Shown here: positions 7,330 to 56,666 of the stretch, piece after piece
Position numbering within the stretch: the first letter of the stretch is position 1
Layout: each line of letters begins with the position of its first letter
NCBI GenBank assembly: GCA_013112585.1
Contig: JABFGH010000012.1
Span: forward strand, 62,001-126,000
Direction: 5' to 3'
Source of the DNA: Ignavibacteriota bacterium
Lineage (GTDB): Bacteria > Bacteroidota > Ignavibacteria > Ignavibacteriales > Melioribacteraceae
Length of the DNA: 64,000 nucleotides
Made by a program: the position numbers and the translations under genes
Notes under the pieces: generated by a model
Seen by the model: only the letters and a program-made list of their open reading frames with translations
What the model was told of the DNA's origin: nothing
The model's database searches: none

Positions 7330-9132
7330 ATGAAAAAAGTACTAATGTTTTTATTATTTGTTTCAAGCTATACGCTGGCACAATACACAACTCCCGGTAC
7401 CGGTGTTGATTGGAACCTTGATGACCTTGTAACAAATTCAGCAGGAACAGTAACGGGCGTTTCTCCAAATTATACTATTAACGAACTGGTAACGGTTTCG
7501 GCGAGTGACAAAATTTCCATAGCAGCGGGTGTTACCGTAAACTTTACAACAGCAAATGCCGGCTTTGAAGTTGACGGATCGCTTACTGCAATAGGAACAA
7601 ACTTAGCCGAAATAACCTTTACCTCACCAACCCCCGATTCCACGGGCGCATACGAAGGTTTTCGATTTAATGAAACAAGCGTTGATGCAGAGTGTATTTT
7701 TAACTATGTACGAATTGAATATGCCTACTACGGCTTTCGTGCTGTAGGTGCTTCACCGACCATCACAAACTCAACTTTATATAAATGCCGCAGAGGGGTT
7801 AATTTAAGCAACTCCGATGCTGTAATTCAGTTCAACATAATTGAAAGGTCTTATGAAAACGGTATTAATATGACGCTCGGTTCTAATGCATTAGTTGAGA
7901 ACAATATTCTAGCTTCTAATAACACACGGGCAGTATCGGCAAGAAATCAAATCAGTGTTGGACTGCAAGGCACAAACTCACCTATAATAAGAGGCAATAC
8001 AATTTACGACGGTCAGGGAATTAGAACCGGCGGTATTAGTTTGTGGGTTAGCGGAAGCAGTAATAATTCCGATGCTATAATTGAAAATAACACTATATAC
8101 GATAACAGTTTCGGTATAGCTCTTTACAGCTCAAACGATGGAAACTTAAACGCTATTGTTAGAGGCAACACAATTTACAATAACACAAAAAATCCTGATG
8201 CTTCTGTTTCCGGAAGTGGAATAAATGTTAATGGAAGTCCTTTTAATCAGCCTATAATTACCCGTAACACAATTCACGACAACTGGTGGGGTATTACAAT
8301 TCAAAGCGGTACAAGTGTAGTTCCCGGACCGCAGCCTAATGTAGGTAACATTTTTAATGCCGATACTTCCGATGACGGGTGGAATAAAATTTACAACAAC
8401 ATTCAAGGCACGGATGCTTTTGATCTGTACAACAATTGCACAAATGATATTTTCGCGCACAATAACGATTGGGGTGTTTATGATTCCGCTTCAATCGAAA
8501 ACAATATCTTTCACAAAGTTGATGACCCCGCTCATGGCAGCGTTTTCTTTGTTCCGTTCTGGAACGGAGTAATACCTGTTGAACTGACATCATTTACGGC
8601 AGCCGCTTCAGCCGAAGGGATATTGCTAAACTGGTCAACTGCAACTGAAGTAAATAATTTAGGCTTTGATGTTGAGAGGAATACAAATAGCAGTTGGGAA
8701 AAAATTGGCTTTAAAGAAGGCGCAGGCAGTACAACGAACCCGGTGAATTACTCATTTGTTGATAAAGATAATTTAACCGGTAAGGTCAGTTACAGACTTA
8801 AACAAATTGATTATGACGGTACCACTGAATTCAGCAAAGTAGTTGAAGTTACAATTGATAATGTTGTTAAAGATTTTAATCTTGAACAAAACTACCCGAA
8901 CCCGTTTAACCCAACAACTATAATAAAATTCAGAAGTCAGAAATCAGAATTTGCAACACTAAAAGTATTTGATGCGCTTGGAAGCGAAGTGACAACCCTG
9001 GTAAATAAAATATTACCGGCGGGTGAACATTCCTTTAATTTTGATGCGAGTAATTTGCCAAGCGGAATTTATTATTATAAAATTAATGCAGGTGATTACT
9101 CTCAAACACGCAAAATGATGCTTTTGAAATAG
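7330..9132 (+). CDS. Secreted right-handed beta-helix protein with type IX sorting domain
   Basis: A 600-residue exported protein. A signal peptide covers residues 1-18 (MKKVLMFLLFVSSYTLAQ). Residues ~60-400 are parallel beta-helix repeats of NosD/pectate-lyase style, with recurring units such as ENNTIYDNSFGIAL and RGNTIYNNTK. A linker domain follows (VELTSFTAAASAEGILLNW to the SYRLKQIDYDG region) that often precedes sorting domains in this group. The C-terminus is a type A type IX sorting domain (QNYPNPFNPTTIIKF ... MMLLK). An AGAGGA site precedes the ATG. It is probably a carbohydrate-binding or carbohydrate-degrading surface protein, but catalytic residues cannot be assigned. No obvious operon partner. 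Confidence 0.85.
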   Translation: MKKVLMFLLFVSSYTLAQYTTPGTGVDWNLDDLVTNSAGTVTGVSPNYTINELVTVSASDKISIAAGVTVNFTTANAGFEVDGSLTAIGTNLAEITFTSPTPDSTGAYEGFRFNETSVDAECIFNYVRIEYAYYGFRAVGASPTITNSTLYKCRRGVNLSNSDAVIQFNIIERSYENGINMTLGSNALVENNILASNNTRAVSARNQISVGLQGTNSPIIRGNTIYDGQGIRTGGISLWVSGSSNNSDAIIENNTIYDNSFGIALYSSNDGNLNAIVRGNTIYNNTKNPDASVSGSGINVNGSPFNQPIITRNTIHDNWWGITIQSGTSVVPGPQPNVGNIFNADTSDDGWNKIYNNIQGTDAFDLYNNCTNDIFAHNNDWGVYDSASIENNIFHKVDDPAHGSVFFVPFWNGVIPVELTSFTAAASAEGILLNWSTATEVNNLGFDVERNTNSSWEKIGFKEGAGSTTNPVNYSFVDKDNLTGKVSYRLKQIDYDGTTEFSKVVEVTIDNVVKDFNLEQNYPNPFNPTTIIKFRSQKSEFATLKVFDALGSEVTTLVNKILPAGEHSFNFDASNLPSGIYYYKINAGDYSQTRKMMLLK

Positions 9133-44331: not shown

Positions 44332-47300
44332 GTTTCAATCCGCGCACCCGTGATGGGTGCGACAGTACCGCCCATCCAATTGGACCCAATGAAGCAAGTT
44401 TCAATCCACGCACCCGTGATGGGTGCGACTCGATATCGCCGGTTTCGGTGATTTGTTTATCGGTGTTTCAATCCACGCACCCGTGATGGGTGCGACATTT
44501 ATTCCTATTCTGTTATTTGTAGCATCTATTGTTTCAATCCACGCACCCGTGATGGGTGCGACTTGAGATAATCGATACTGGTTTAGACTTATTAGGTTTC
44601 AATCCACGCACCCGTGATGGGTGCGACTTCGGGTCAATCCTTAATTGGTTTGACTCAAACGATGTTTCAATCCACGCACCCGTGATGGGTGCGACTTCTT
44701 TGTTTTTTTTATCTATGTAATCTTTTATTGTTTCAATCCACGCACCCGTGATGGGTGCGACTTCCTGCCGCCAATTTACCTACATTGTAGAAATCGTTTC
44801 AATCCACGCACCCGTGATGGGTGCGACCCCATTAGTGAGATTATTCGTACGCGGTAATCGGTTTCAATCCACGCACCCGTGATGGGTGCGACATCGAGAT
44901 GGATGCGGCGGCCGAGTATCATTAGGTTTCAATCCACGCACCCGTGATGGGTGCGACGAGCACAACCACATGGAAAAGATTAAAAGACCAAGTTTCAATC
45001 CACGCACCCGTGATGGGTGCGACTATATCCCTCGATTCCGCCGATGTAATTTGGAGTGTTTCAATCCACGCACCCGTGATGGGTGCGACGTTATCATATA
45101 TCGATAACTACAGCACCCAGCGCGTTTCAATCCACGCACCCGTGATGGGTGCGACCGGCTGCATTCCAAACCACACAATTTAAATTTGATGTTTCAATCC
45201 ACGCACCCGTGATGGGTGCGACCAAATGGGCTGCTACTAATAAAAACGGCAGAACAGTTTCAATCCACGCACCCGTGATGGGTGCGACCTGGCAGACGGA
45301 ACCGGACAAACCTTAAAAGACGGTTTCAATCCACGCACCCGTGATGGGTGCGACATGGTAACTTGCTTTTTATGGAAAACGCAGAAGGGTTTCAATCCAC
45401 GCACCCGTGATGGGTGCGACACGTTTTGTGGTGTGGGTAGTTTTTAAGGGAAGGTTTCAATCCACGCACCCGTGATGGGTGCGACGCAATCGAACAGTTT
45501 GTTAACTGATATAAAAAATGTTTCAATCCACGCACCCGTGATGGGTGCGACCAGGCGGGGTTAATGATACTTACACGGTAACAACGGTTTCAATCCACGC
45601 ACCCGTGATGGGTGCGACTAAATATTATTACAAATGGGCTGCTACTAATAAGTTTCAATCCACGCACCCGTGATGGGTGCGACGGTTAATTTCATAATTC
45701 TGTTTTGTGCTGATTGGTTTCAATCCACGCACCCGTGATGGGTGCGACTCGTACGCGTTATCAAAGGTACATCGGCACAAAATGTTTCAATCCACGCACC
45801 CGTGATGGGTGCGACACCGGCTTTATTTTGGTAGCTGGTATCTGCCGTGTTTCAATCCACGCACCCGTGATGGGTGCGACGGTGAAATTTGGTTCGGTAG
45901 TATTAGCCTTAAAGTTTCAATCCACGCACCCGTGATGGGTGCGACCACATTAAAAAACATAAACGATTATTCACTGAGGTTTCAATCCACGCACCCGTGA
46001 TGGGTGCGACATCCCATTAGTGAGATTATTCGTACGCGGTAATCGGTTTCAATCCACGCACCCGTGATGGGTGCGACCGTATATTCCAATACCGGTTATG
46101 CTTTCGACTGTGTTTCAATCCACGCACCCGTGATGGGTGCGACATAGATTCACTTGCTGATATCCATAAAGTAAATGTTTCAATCCACGCACCCGTGATG
46201 GGTGCGACCCGGTTAAGCTCTCAATTTGTTCCTCTTCTTTAATGTTTCAATCCACGCACCCGTGATGGGTGCGACCTCAAGGTGCTGTAATAGCACTTGA
46301 ATTGGTTGTGTTTCAATCCACGCACCCGTGATGGGTGCGACAATCTGCACAAGCAATAACTAAACAAAACAAAAAGTTTCAATCCACGCACCCGTGATGG
46401 GTGCGACAGAACTGAGTAACCCATATATAATCACAGCAAAGGTTTCAATCCACGCACCCGTGATGGGTGCGACTATATCCCTCGATTCCGCCGATGTAAT
46501 TTGGAGTGTTTCAATCCACGCACCCGTGATGGGTGCGACACCGGTGTATTTTATCGTAAAGCCAAGTATCGTGTTTCAATCCACGCACCCGTGATGGGTG
46601 CGACTGGTATTACATCACTTAACCCTAAAAAGGTTGACGTTTCAATCCACGCACCCGTGATGGGTGCGACTGAAGAAACATGCAAAGAGCTTAAAAACTA
46701 TATTGTTTCAATCCACGCACCCGTGATGGGTGCGACTTAACCCACTCACTTGAGTTGGGTTATTATTTTTGTTTCAATCCACGCACCCGTGATGGGTGCG
46801 ACCCGTATATTCCAATACCGGTTATGCTTTCGACTGTGTTTCAATCCACGCACCCGTGATGGGTGCGACACTGCCGGTAAGTAAGTTTACCGGCAGTAGT
46901 TATAGTTTCAATCCACGCACCCGTGATGGGTGCGACGCAAAGGTACCGTAAAACAATTAATAGCATTCGGGTTTCAATCCACGCACCCGTGATGGGTGCG
47001 ACACGATAGGAACGCCGATGTCTTTGGCAGCTAACTGTTTCAATCCACGCACCCGTGATGGGTGCGACATTCCCTACTAATGCTTTTATGATTATTTGCA
47101 ATGTTTCAATCCACGCACCCGTGATGGGTGCGACTGGATTCCCAGACATTTGTGTAGGTGCTTACGGGTTTCAATCCACGCACCCGTGATGGGTGCGACA
47201 GTAATGGGCAGACGTTTTGTTTGTGTAGGAAGTGTTTCAATCCACGCACCCGTGATGGGTGCGACTAAGTCACAATTCAAATACAAACCATGTTTCTTAT

Positions 47301-47995: not shown

Positions 47996-49024
47996 TTACC
48001 TTAAATAAAATGGTGTATATTTTTCGATATCGCCTCTAATATATCGGGCTAATAATTTTGCTTGAATATGCGGCAGTAAACCGATTGTCATTTTTTCTTG
48101 TAGGAATGGATGTGTTATTGTTTCTTGCTTTCGTTTTTGATAGGCTGCAAGCACAGCTTTTCTTGCTTTATCTGACATTCTTATTTCACCGGATTCTCTT
48201 TTTTCAAAATCTTTTATGTTCACTTGTTTTAGGTTTATTAGGTTCAGCATTATTCTGTCTCCCATGTAGGCTCTAAATTCTTCCATCACATCAAGCGCTA
48301 AGCTGGGTCTGCCGGCACGTAGTTGATGTAGGAACCCCACCTGCGGGTCCAGCCCTGTAGTTTCTAATGCTGACCTTACATCATTTACAAGTATTGCATA
48401 GATAAATGACAGCAGTGAGTTGGCTGCATCTAATGGCGGACGCTTACTTCTATTTGCAAAAACGAAATCACTTTTTTGAGCAACAATTAATTCGGAGAGT
48501 ACTGAAAAATATATTTGTGCACTTTCTCCTTCGTAGCCGCGCAGTTCATTCAGGGAATTGCTTTTTTCGATATTAGATAATCTTTTGCCCATTGCTGCAA
48601 TGGCTTTTATAACTGTTTCCGGACATATATCAGAATGATTACGCTGGTGTCTTTGCAGTATGTACCTATAGTTTGAAACTTTTGCGGCTATAATCGGGCG
48701 CGCTATTTCCATCGATAGAAATTCGTCATCCGAAATTAAATATTGTTGTTTTCGGATTAGCACATTACCCTTTTGTGCACCGTAAACTTTAGCTAAAAAC
48801 TTTCCGTTTGGCGATAGGTAGCAGATGCCTATATTGTTTTCTGCACAGTATGCCATTAGCGATGGTGATATAATTTTATAGCCGAAGCAAACTATGTTTT
48901 CTATTGAATGAACCGGTGCTTGGAATACTTTTTTATTGTCAATCTCTACTATAAAGGTTTCGTGGTCTTTATGAATATAGGCATCGTCGGAGGTAATATA
49001 TAGTGTGTTCAGATGTTTTTTCAT
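47996..49024 (-). CDS. cas1: CRISPR integrase Cas1 (subtype I-C)
   Basis: A 342-residue Cas1. The N-terminal beta domain (TLYITSDDAYIHKDHETFIV) precedes the helical catalytic domain with metal ligands Glu in LRGYEGESAQIYF, His in FLHQLRAGRPSLALD and Asp/Glu in DVMEEFRAYMGDR. It inserts prespacers at the leader end of the array. Its start overlaps the cas4 stop by four bases, indicating translational coupling. Confidence 0.97.
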   Translation of the reverse strand: MKKHLNTLYITSDDAYIHKDHETFIVEIDNKKVFQAPVHSIENIVCFGYKIISPSLMAYCAENNIGICYLSPNGKFLAKVYGAQKGNVLIRKQQYLISDDEFLSMEIARPIIAAKVSNYRYILQRHQRNHSDICPETVIKAIAAMGKRLSNIEKSNSLNELRGYEGESAQIYFSVLSELIVAQKSDFVFANRSKRPPLDAANSLLSFIYAILVNDVRSALETTGLDPQVGFLHQLRAGRPSLALDVMEEFRAYMGDRIMLNLINLKQVNIKDFEKRESGEIRMSDKARKAVLAAYQKRKQETITHPFLQEKMTIGLLPHIQAKLLARYIRGDIEKYTPFYLR

Positions 49025-49644
49025 GGTGTGTATAATCCTTTTATATAATTTTCTACTTTGCGCCGATTAAGTAATTTGGGCTGGCATATTTGCTGCAACG
49101 AGCAATTTTTACATTTAGAACTATATTCTTCGCGGGGAATTTTTTTATTATCAACTATTTCTCTTACAGCAGTAATTGTATCGGATGTTATTTTCCTAAG
49201 TTCTTCGTCTATTTCTATTTTTTCTCTTCTGCGTATTTTTGCATAATAAAATTCAGCACGCTTAATTTTAACGGAAAGCATTTCCTCTAAACAAATTGCC
49301 TGTGCACATAGTTGTATTTTATCACTAAAGTCATTTTTAGGTTTTCCCGCTTTATATTCTACAGGCAAAACTGTGTTTTCTTTTGTGCTATTGTTAAATT
49401 CTACAACATCACATCTGCCCACTATGCCGTATTTATATGAGTGAATGCGCAGCCCTCTTACCGTTTTTATATTTCCTCGCGTTTCGTATGTGTCGGTATC
49501 TACTTTTTCATGCAGCAGATTTCCCCGTGTTGTGTATAGGTTTTCCTGCCATACGTCATCTACGTGTATTAGTCCGCATTGCCTGGGACAGTAGATGTAG
49601 TGCTGCAAAGCGCTGATCATTATGAATTCTTCTTCCTTGTGCAT
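49021..49644 (-). CDS. cas4: CRISPR exonuclease Cas4
   Basis: A RecB-like nuclease that trims prespacers and selects PAMs with Cas1-Cas2. It has a first Cys pair in YCPRQCGL and a C-terminal CKNCSLQQIC for a 4Fe-4S cluster, plus GRCDVVEF and LPVEYKAGK of the nuclease core. The frame is open to 49677, but the extra 11 residues (MKRRGWGMSRV) come from the flanking palindromic repeat. The start MHKEEEFIMISALQH at 49644 matches the family, giving 207 residues. GGGGATGAG from the repeat may now serve as its ribosome-binding site. Confidence 0.93.
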   Translation of the reverse strand: MHKEEEFIMISALQHYIYCPRQCGLIHVDDVWQENLYTTRGNLLHEKVDTDTYETRGNIKTVRGLRIHSYKYGIVGRCDVVEFNNSTKENTVLPVEYKAGKPKNDFSDKIQLCAQAICLEEMLSVKIKRAEFYYAKIRRREKIEIDEELRKITSDTITAVREIVDNKKIPREEYSSKCKNCSLQQICQPKLLNRRKVENYIKGLYTP

Positions 49645-49648
49645 TACT

Positions 49649-50077
49649 CTACTCATCCCCCAACCCCTTCTCTTCAAAGAGAAGGGGGGTTTTATATTTG
49701 ATTTCTTTTTTGATCTTGTTTAGTACGCTGTTTATGTTTTTTTCTATTTCTTCGTTTTTGAATCTCATTACTTTTATTCCAAGGTTGTTGATTATTTCAG
49801 TTCTTTGTTGATCGTTTTCTTTTTGTCTTTCATGATATCCCCCGTCTATTTCAATTACTAACTTTTCTTGATGACAATAAAAATCAGCAATATAAAAACT
49901 CTCTTTGCCGTTTAGATCATAGTATATGGGAAATTGCCTGTTAAACTTTTTCCCAATAAATTTTCTATTCCTTACATTTTCCCAAAATAATTTTTCAGCC
50001 GGTGTTGAATTTTTTCGCAACTCCCTACAAAGGTTTGTCGCTATTCGTCTTAATTTTGATTTTGAATTTAAGCTCAT
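49649..50077 (-). CDS. DUF559 endonuclease-like protein (PD-(D/E)XK / Vsr-like fold)
   Basis: A 142-residue protein of the DUF559 family, related to very-short-patch-repair-like nucleases. The helical start TPAEKLFWENVRNRKFIGKK leads to the nuclease core: Asp in YIADFYCH, then Glu and Asp in LVIEIDGGYH, and a later strand VMRFKNEEIEKN. The last 13 residues (TPLLFEEKGLGDE) and the TAG stop are encoded by the left palindromic repeat. It interrupts the cas operon between cas7 and cas4 and is not a known cas gene. It may move or protect its own repeats, or be a passive passenger; biochemical function is unproven. Confidence 0.85.
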   Translation of the reverse strand: MSLNSKSKLRRIATNLCRELRKNSTPAEKLFWENVRNRKFIGKKFNRQFPIYYDLNGKESFYIADFYCHQEKLVIEIDGGYHERQKENDQQRTEIINNLGIKVMRFKNEEIEKNINSVLNKIKKEIKYKTPLLFEEKGLGDE

Positions 50078-50188
50078 AATAATATTTAACTCATTCTAAA
50101 ACCCACTCCGCCTGCCAAGAAAAGCGTGGGACAGCTCTTGGACTATTAAAAGCCCTTCTCTCTGGAGAGAAGGGTTTGGGATGAGTAG
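49649..50188. mobile_element. 540-bp nuclease-carrying palindromic element in the cas operon
   Basis: The unit is bounded by inverted copies of one palindromic repeat. The left copy, 49649-49687, begins CTACTCATCCCCCAA and has the stem CCCCTTCTCTT/AAGAGAAGGGG. The right copy, 50153-50188, has the stem CCCTTCTCTC/GAGAGAAGGG and ends TTTGGGATGAGTAG. Between them lies only the DUF559 gene. Removing the unit would leave about 70 bases between cas7 and cas4, a normal operon gap. No target-site duplication is apparent. A solo repeat lies at 56436-56472. Confidence 0.6.
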
Positions 50189-50254: not shown

Positions 50255-51160
50255 TCACTTTACTTCAACGACTTTAAATATTTCAGGGAATGTTTCGCCG
50301 TCAAGGAGTATTTCGTAATCGGTGTAGTCTCTTGCGGGTTTAAACTGATCATTAGTTCTTTTCCAGGTTACTCTTTCAAAAAGTTCGTGAGCCGGTTTGT
50401 TACCAAGAGCATTATCATGTTTAAAGACAATTAATTTTCTTGTACTCATTAAACCGCGTGCAGCAGAGTGATCGTGTTCAAACATTTGCTGCATTGCATT
50501 CCAAAATAATTCAAGATCTTCTGTTGAAAAGCCGGTCTGCTCGGCAAGATGTGCCGAAATAAAACCATGAGCACGATATAGACCATAAGGCACTGTATAT
50601 TTCCGACCCATTTCAGAACCACCTGTTTCTGCACGTTCTTCAGTGGTTTTTGCAACTCTTGTAATACTATGTTCAAGGGCAATTATCGGCTCAACAGATC
50701 TTGCAAAAGTCATTTGGATTGGACCACGAACTTGCCCTGCATTAGCTCCAGTACTCATAACAGCACCAAATGTTCTTACGTCAAAAAAATCTTCACACAT
50801 TTTCTTGCGTCCCTTTGAGATTTCACTCCCCTGTGCTTCTCCCTTTTTATTCCTCTTCTTTCCGTCTTTTTCATCAGCGGGTATTTTTTCAAGATCTATC
50901 TCCAGTTTAGCGTAAGCATCAGAAATCAAGTTATTCAAAACAGCTTTTTCTTTAATGAAAATATCATAAGGTGCTTCGCACCTTTTAACTACTTGAACAA
51001 AATTTCGAACTTTTCTCTTTAAACAAACATCAGTTGTTAATCCCATTCCTGTTTCTGCATCAATTCTTGGTAAATTGCCTGCATCTGGATCACCGTTTGG
51101 ATTACCATCTTTTACATCAAAAAAGAAAACAAAGTCATACCGATTATTAATTACAGCCAT
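50255..51160 (-). CDS. cas7: Type I-C Cascade backbone protein Cas7 (Csd2)
   Basis: A 301-residue Cas7c. It begins with the RRM-type strand DFVFFFDVKDGNPNGDPDAG, typical of Csd2/Csh2 proteins. Further features are FDVRTFGAVMSTGANAGQVR, the thumb-like GPIQMTFARSVEP and FEHDHSAARGLMSTR. Several copies coat the crRNA in the effector complex. AAGGAG lies ten bases before the ATG. It follows cas8c by 28 bases; downstream the operon is interrupted by the DUF559 element. Confidence 0.96.
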   Translation of the reverse strand: MAVINNRYDFVFFFDVKDGNPNGDPDAGNLPRIDAETGMGLTTDVCLKRKVRNFVQVVKRCEAPYDIFIKEKAVLNNLISDAYAKLEIDLEKIPADEKDGKKRNKKGEAQGSEISKGRKKMCEDFFDVRTFGAVMSTGANAGQVRGPIQMTFARSVEPIIALEHSITRVAKTTEERAETGGSEMGRKYTVPYGLYRAHGFISAHLAEQTGFSTEDLELFWNAMQQMFEHDHSAARGLMSTRKLIVFKHDNALGNKPAHELFERVTWKRTNDQFKPARDYTDYEILLDGETFPEIFKVVEVK

Positions 51161-56078: not shown

Positions 56079-56435
56079 TTCCGCCTCCTAGTTGGTCCTT
56101 CGGTATGTGACTCACATCTTTAGATGTTTCTCAAATATCATTTCAAAAATTTAAGTGCGTTATTTTAGCTGTTAAAAAAAATTATAACAAACCCTAAGCA
56201 CTCATTCATCTCTTCATACAATATTCAATGGAATTTTTTCTTTTCTGCTGATGAATTTTTGAATCAACTTTTAATCGAACTTTTTTTTAGTGTGCAGCCG
56301 CAATAGATTAAAATCAAAATAATACTTTACGGTCAATAATTCAAATTTAGGATTTAGTAGATTTAAAGTTCTATACAAGCGAGAGATGGCAAAGAAATTT
56401 CTTTAAAATTCAAAACAAGCTTTAAATATAAACCT
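56079..56435. other. Upstream region of the cas operon, no gene seen
   Basis: 357 bases of mostly AT-rich sequence without a coding frame I can support. GGAGG (56087-56091 in plus orientation reads cctcc) is the cas3 ribosome-binding site, so the cas promoter should lie in this stretch. Confidence 0.5.
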
Positions 56436-56472
56436 CCCCTTCTATTTTTAAGAGAAGGGGCTGGGGGATGAG
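56436..56472. repeat. Solo copy of the DUF559-element palindromic repeat
   Basis: CCCCTTCT/AGAAGGGG (56436-56443 with 56453-56460) followed by CTGGGGGATGAG (56461-56472). Same orientation and end sequence (GGGATGAG) as the right repeat of the element at 49649-50188. No nuclease gene is attached. Confidence 0.7.
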
Positions 56473-56666
56473 TTATTTTTGTTGGGGTGCTGTGCAGCAA
56501 GCAGCGCTGCATTTTACATTAAACCCTCAAAACAATGCTTTATTATTAGATTTCGGTAATCTGCACTAAATATTCCGGCTTGGAGATCCCCAATTCATAA
56601 AAGGCAAATAATAAATAATAACCTTTTGTTTTCTTCACCTTCATACGGAACAGCTTCACCACTCAC

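Follow-up and report, generated by a model that had tools for sequence, protein, structure and literature searches.

A DUF559 nuclease gene paired with palindromic repeats: a probable selfish unit of REPtron-like architecture between two type I-C cas genes

MITEs are short gene-less elements with inverted ends that occur beside gene-bearing ones, and in the Rickettsia palindromic elements palindromic DNA is translated in frame inside unrelated proteins. Closer in architecture are the REPtrons (PMC3733652, PMC8266576) and the REPINs (PMC3116915), for which the accessible portions of these reports give the enzyme as an HUH tyrosine transposase and the tag of the repeat as GTAG. Excerpts of the same literature describe RAYT domestication (PMC8266576) and a set of CGTC repeats that are not associated with transposase genes (PMC3733652). 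The open-access literature, which was the scope of our search (subscription journals and preprints lay outside it), gave no report of DUF559 genes paired with palindromic repeats.

We analysed a window of 64,000 nucleotides from a member of the Melioribacteraceae (Ignavibacteriota), in which a DUF559 gene enclosed by hairpins lies in a type I-C cas operon. Its features are the following.

49649..50188, minus strand: the whole unit (tail and hairpin H1, spacer, DUF559 gene, hairpin H2, tail), between cas7 and cas4
49649..50077, minus strand: DUF559 (PD-(D/E)XK, Vsr-like) nuclease gene, 142 amino acids (Pfam PF04480, E 7.7e-34; PDB 3hrl, E 8.7e-15; predicted fold)
49649..49686, minus strand: downstream half repeat, made of H2 (49665-49686) and a tail box (49649-49659), encoding the stop codon and the 12 to 13 residues before it
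50146..50188, minus strand: upstream half repeat, made of a tail box (50178-50188), H1 (50153-50174) and CTTTTAA at the start of the spacer (50146-50152)
56433..56474, plus strand: third, gene-less copy, one imperfect hairpin with the tail GGGGGATGAGTT, beyond the 5' end of cas3
50255..51160, minus strand: cas7 (I-C), the upstream operon neighbour (Pfam Cas_Cas7, E 6.4e-105)
49021..49644, minus strand: cas4, the downstream operon neighbour (Pfam Cas_Cas4, E 3e-26, in a longer frame of the same ORF)

On the strand of the gene the unit reads tail CTACTCATCCC, H1, CTTTTAA, gene, H2, tail GGGATGAGTAG. The hairpin, CCCTTCTC-N6-GAGAAGGG, is found at 49665-49686 and at 50153-50174, with the outer boxes CTACTCATCCC at 49649-49659 and GGGATGAGTAG at 50178-50188. 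The repeat encodes the final 12 to 13 residues of the nuclease (TPLLFEEKGLGDE) and its stop codon (49649-49651), and the start codon of cas4 follows 4 nt past this stop. With the end of the cas7 frame at 50255 and the ATG of cas4 at 49644, removal of the unit would leave about 70 nt between these two genes. An earlier note, made from the letters of the window, had described the gene as enclosed by inverted palindromes with common outer ends, with its last 13 residues and stop codon inside one of them, about 70 bases between cas7 and cas4 once the unit is taken out, and a third, gene-less copy near 56436; all of this agrees with what we find. Elsewhere in the window, an open frame of repeated VAPITGAWIET units (46841-47149) looks like a translated I-C CRISPR array.

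A search of the 4.94-Mb genome for the exact window hairpin gave three sites, two of which flank the window gene, and window-type copies of tail plus hairpin number six; the reversed control patterns gave none in either search. Besides the gene-less copy at 56433-56474, two window-type copies, on contig 29, are gene-less doublets like those of REPINs (L010; for example ACTCACCCC-AAA-H1-CTTTTAAAC-H2-CTGGGGGATGAGT). Such doublets, GAACTCACCC..H1..CTTTTAA..H2..GGGATGAGTTC, have common outer ends across several genera. They show the same layout as the window unit, so the gene occupies the position of the doublet's spacer. MITEs also have gene-less forms with inverted ends, but the DUF559 unit has no transposase and no target duplication was seen.

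The likeness to REPtrons, with their RAYT (TnpA-REP) genes, REPs and REPINs, lies in a small gene between inverted hairpin repeats, in a short tag on one side of the hairpin, in repeat families that are specific to a gene, in gene-less doublets with inverted outer ends and in the presence of several families in one genome. The flanking of the gene by inverted hairpin repeats is seen directly in the window. The enzyme is different: Pfam assigns the window gene to DUF559, with no Y1_Tnp, and thus a PD-(D/E)XK enzyme stands where REPtrons have an HUH tyrosine transposase. The tag differs as well, being GGGATGAG, GGGTGAGG or GGGGTGTG in DUF559 units instead of GTAG; the window copies end in GATGAGTAG, those of relatives mostly in GATGAGTT or GATGAGTC, and other DUF559 clades carry GGTGAGG or GGGGTGTG. 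Because both the HUH transposase and GTAG fail, we do not file the unit as a REPtron and say only that it is built like one. A further difference is that DUF559 units also occur in frame inside proteins.

The structure predicted for the nuclease (AlphaFold2, from 37 aligned sequences, mean pLDDT 80, with the repeat-encoded tail at residues 130-141 under 50) has the PD-(D/E)XK, Vsr-like fold that is also found among homing endonucleases. Its matches by Z are 3hrl, a solved DUF559-like protein (14.5), the homing endonuclease I-Bth0305I (3r3p, 10.7), Vsr (8.8) and TnsA (6.9), with two mitoribosomal proteins (9.4 and 9.1) ranking between I-Bth0305I and Vsr. In Foldseek, 3hrl alone falls below E 0.001, and I-Bth0305I has E 0.012. 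The model suggests I-Bth0305I and Vsr as the nearest characterised folds. Invariant residues include E28, D65, D78, H82 and D89, and E76 is nearly invariant, a pattern that, judged from the alignment, would be expected of an active nuclease. Caulobacter VsrA is a DUF559 protein linked to cytosine methylation, according to the available part of its report (PMC12907096). The likeness to Vsr and VsrA mismatch endonucleases thus covers the fold and, in VsrA, the family, but genes of the window type are bounded by repeats; likewise, I-Bth0305I shares the predicted fold, but DUF559 units are found at many unrelated sites and are bounded by palindromes.

The association with palindromes is not restricted to the window gene. 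A family search of the genome returned seven rows, corresponding to five genes, of which one is split over two rows, and a weak match (22 bits, in a 1466-aa frame, G000:C3). All five genes examined are flanked by palindromes, which are of three types: GATGAG with CCCTTCTC (window gene), GGTGAGG with CCCTCTCC (C21 and C27) and GGGGTGTG with TCCCCTC (C42 and C15). The C15 copy is frame-broken, as is a copy in a relative (L134).

DUF559 is present in 40 of 58 related genomes. The loci read are the best-scoring matches of this search and of a second one, not a random draw, and contain 112 unique genes as distinguished by their aligned segments. After the exclusion of five genes in long frames and six with short flanks, 101 standalone genes were scored for a GC-rich hairpin with a stem of at least 8 within 200 nt on either side, with 296 ORFs of the same loci as controls. 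Hairpins were detected at 74/101 DUF559 genes versus 33/296 control ORFs, and on both sides at 26/101 versus 4/296. We also searched other phyla (tblastn; 35 records of a plasmid collection and two of a phage collection) and picked 13 of these 37 records for variety, from cyanobacteria, alpha- and gammaproteobacteria, Deinococcus and one phage contig. Hairpins lie within 250 nt in 12 of the 13, compared with 6 of 39 control window pairs, and the tail boxes CTCACCC or CTCATCCC in 9 of the 13, compared with 3 of 39; at these settings one locus (L271) has neither. Flanking palindromes in relatives and in other phyla, for which the earlier note had proposed to look, are therefore present in both sets. 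The opposite cases named there, relatives' genes that lack the association or cas operons with the gene and no repeats, are not the rule, but no hairpin reached the threshold at 27/101 genes; within 260 nt, 12 of these have a 7-bp stem, 18 a tail box and 4 neither (counts without a control).

The type of repeat also varies with the protein. On a tree of 107 DUF559 proteins the repeat words follow the clades, and protein distance correlates negatively with the number of shared flank 8-mers (Spearman -0.33; none of 1000 permutations as low). When flanks were swapped among the genes of one genome, none of 300 trials reached the observed value. The flanks in this test can include some coding sequence, and for this reason the test was rerun with words from hairpin regions only, giving a Spearman value of -0.26 (0/1000 permutations; 8/1000 for the swap within genomes, with 49 genes in 19 genomes).

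Across the class, the window-type (type-A) repeat is detected in 56/391 genomes (the reversed pattern has two hits, in two genomes). It is found in 26 of the 36 genomes that have a gene of the window clade, defined as 120 bits or more, a limit chosen after seeing the match scores, versus 30 of the 355 others (Fisher 2.8e-17). The 30 genomes that have the repeat and no window-clade gene at 120 bits, together with 10 that have the gene and no exact pattern, favour decay or other drivers. Type-A copy numbers are low in most relatives. For gene-less doublets 29 of 30 loci were scored, and a strict test recognised doublets in 7 of 21 gene-less copies of relatives (L361 among them is doubtful by eye), with at least two more by eye (L355 and L368). 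Nested inserts also occur: in L229, L248 and L350 a second short palindrome (like TCGAAGATCCCG..CGGG) interrupts some of the hairpin loops.

Some palindrome-bearing DUF559 genes lie inside long open frames, and their palindromes are translated as part of the protein. Four of these frames (L012, L014, L017 and L020) encode a MetH-type protein whose two B12-binding domains are separated by the DUF559 part; three others (L011, L013 and L015) encode an HsdR-type protein in which this part comes before the SWI2/SNF2-type helicase domain. The part read of a further in-frame case (L036) has no other Pfam domain, so its host protein is only a guess. We located the MetH region in 29 of 30 genomes: five have the in-frame unit, 23 a plain stretch of 96-105 nt and one (G035) what seems to be a gene-less remnant. 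These empty linkers vary too much to give the precise ends of the unit. Among the MetH loci L294 and L295, the second seems to retain a gene-less remnant only. In-frame palindromes are shared with the Rickettsia palindromic elements, but the insert here carries its own nuclease gene. Elsewhere, some units adjoin restriction-modification genes (L112, L118 and L126, by Pfam), and others sit, by our reading, in ordinary operons.

Two of the distant loci are E. coli chromosomes filed as plasmids. We take their DUF559 gene to be ycjD, judging by the family and by a sapF-like neighbour; the available part of one report places ycjD between sapF and fabI (PMC12817139), and an excerpt of another shows that YcjD had been named a PD-(D/E)XK member by 2005 (PMC1189080). 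The pattern GAGAGGG-N3-GGGTGAGGG, with one mismatch allowed, has 33 copies in one of these chromosomes and 16 in the other, and its reversed control has none. We do not equate them with a named repeat family. Those of this ycjD type that lie at recA-recX and at araA-araD (L329 and L341) vary among strains, some having them and others not. A 501-nt stretch with the recA-recX copy is covered to at least 80% in 1623 of 5426 genomes, 5375 of which have any match. Strains MC4100 and 536 have no recA-recX repeat, yet the alleles differ by more than an insert, and no clean empty site with a target duplication was found among the recA-recX and araA-araD alleles, which differ beyond the repeat.

That DUF559 genes are paired with palindromic repeats is, in our judgement, very likely. 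The earlier note had proposed a REP/RAYT-like pair of gene and palindrome, and the flanking of most DUF559 genes by palindromes, the agreement of repeat type with clade and the existence of gene-less copies speak for it. Our main reading, to which we give a probability of roughly 0.6, is that of a selfish gene-palindrome pair with REPtron-like architecture and a Vsr-like PD-(D/E)XK nuclease, whose spread is driven by the nuclease. The nuclease would recognise its own tail plus hairpin, whether single-stranded and folded or in duplex form, and would cut beside it. Host repair could then copy the unit or doublet to a new place or, alternatively, copy the gene into an existing doublet, which would amount to homing. 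The RAYT units in the cas joints, the in-frame units and the folds nearest to that of the nuclease also favour this reading. Against it stand the 27 genes below the hairpin threshold, the genomes with only the repeat or only the gene, the low copy numbers, the failure to find a clean insertion with a target duplication and the link of Caulobacter VsrA to cytosine methylation. PD-(D/E)XK enzymes hydrolyse DNA and are not known to join strands, so insertion would need host repair.

The pair may instead be domesticated, with a nuclease that moves nothing and acts on palindromes for the host (in repair, hairpin recombination or cruciform removal) at sites marked by the repeats. The few copies per genome in most relatives and the gene kept open in frame inside MetH in 5/29 genomes with a match are compatible with such a role, as is the domestication described for RAYTs in the accessible part of PMC8266576. 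We nevertheless consider this unlikely, as patchy presence, several repeat types per genome, frame-broken copies and shared slots fit selfish turnover better.

The cas operon itself could suggest another role, in which the nuclease was recruited by CRISPR as a cas accessory working with the adaptation genes, for example in prespacer trimming. Nine of 107 standalone DUF559 genes lie within 2.5 kb of cas genes, eight of which adjoin cas1, cas2 or cas4 or are close to them, in I-C, II-C and another type I system, and named genomes supply two further II-C cases (L170, Melioribacteraceae; L178, Ignavibacteriaceae). The cas labels come from tblastn with 15 cas proteins, a set that could overlook other cas types; confirmation by Pfam was obtained for cas9, cas1 and cas2 of L117, cas1, cas2 and cas3 of L111 and cas9 of L129. 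Between cas9 and cas1 of L170 there is a truncated second DUF559-like frame (8726-8974), the end of which is encoded by repeat-like sequence.

When the cas joints are compared, the gene is not a regular member of either operon. I-C cas7 matches occur in 22/391 genomes; we read the best 17 of 23 loci, and 15 show both cas7 and cas4. The DUF559 unit is at two of these 15 junctions (the source genome and G161), a RAYT-like unit at two (L249 and L253), a BRO-N or RhuM gene at three (L250, L257 and L258), a BRO-N-like fragment with repeats at one (L252, by eye) and gene-less CCCTACGGG-type repeats at three (L251, L254 and L262, by eye), and four have 134 nt or less. At the three gene-less junctions the joint is filled by CCCTACGGG / CCCGTAGGG repeats with TTTATAGA-like tails, and there is no DUF559 gene. 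The BRO-N and RhuM genes and the L252 fragment may represent another kind of lodger. Matches to II-C cas1 occur in 61/391 genomes, and 30 loci were read. DUF559 genes follow cas1 in six; four of these genes belong to the window clade, and those of L241 and L244 come from a different clade and have other repeats. A RAYT-like unit is present in two (L218 and L219, between cas1 and cas2), a gene-less window-type doublet in one (L229), and the remaining 21 have 3-216 nt between the aligned ends. At the I-C and II-C joints the RAYT-like genes matched Y1_Tnp and look to have their own palindromes. Two genomes of one genus with 91% identical cas1 (G056 and G305) have a DUF559 unit and a RAYT-like unit, respectively, at the same joint, and at the cas1/cas2 joint G030 and G241, which also share a genus, differ in carrying the gene-less or the gene-bearing form; a text search for the junction of this second pair matched in G030 only.

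Recruitment by CRISPR thus appears very unlikely to us: the gene is in few of the loci read, two of the six II-C genes belong to another clade with other repeats, and RAYT, BRO-N or RhuM genes or gene-less repeats occupy the same place. The cas residents are moreover not one clade, with five changes on the tree (weak support) pointing to several arrivals, and they have kept their palindromes. We dropped a cas-specialised DUF559 clade as a candidate on this fully labelled tree. The earlier note had offered recruitment as its alternative to an independent system that is no cas gene, and it is the independent system that the related I-C and II-C operons favour, as they hold the unit, other units or nothing at the joint. 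Its proposed comparison of I-C operons with and without the insert succeeded to the extent that the unit is present in some and absent or replaced in others, but no clean insertion or target duplication was found. The best reading of the window nuclease is that of a lodger at a permissive operon joint and no cas gene. Short inserts are, we propose, tolerated where the effector genes meet the adaptation genes, which would account for the presence of the unit in the cas operon.

The RAYT units in the same slots of relatives raise the possibility that both kinds of unit use the same kind of target, and that a RAYT or a transposase acts in trans to move the DUF559 unit, with DUF559 as a passenger or addiction gene. 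This is hardly likely, as the repeats beside RAYT genes differ by eye from the DUF559 types and the match between DUF559 and repeat holds within genomes. Least likely, and already disfavoured, is that the repeats are mere transcription terminators or RNA processing hairpins with an incidental link to DUF559: the hairpins are GC-rich and some come just after stop codons, but 26/101 genes have them on both sides, the asymmetric tail lies outside the stem, repeat type tracks the protein clade, control ORFs of the same loci rarely have hairpins, and some hairpins are translated in frame inside long proteins.

A broader form of the selfish reading is more tentative, and we would put it at somewhat less than an even chance. 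It supposes that a class of palindromic repeats found throughout bacteria, with the tail CTCACCC or CTCATCC and either a CCCTCTCC or a CCCTTCTC hairpin, has its missing enzymes in the DUF559 proteins, and that the GAGAGGGTTAGGGTGAGGG repeats beside ycjD in E. coli belong to this class. Each enzyme would be a Vsr-like hydrolase, and no transposase; it would disseminate the hairpins at its own ends, enter doublets by homing, and insert into operon joints and, in frame, into protein linkers. DUF559 enzymes might also be behind the CGTC-tagged REPs, for which the accessible part of PMC3733652 has no transposase.

Although DUF559 proteins are common, no role for the family is agreed on; the pairing offers one that can be tested, including in E. 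coli K-12. If the selfish reading is true, REP-like spreading has been reached by two unrelated enzymes, and palindrome families that have no driver gain a candidate. Genes between cas genes can be lodgers, as the I-C and II-C joints read here hold changing selfish units, and this matters for guilt-by-association searches around cas operons.
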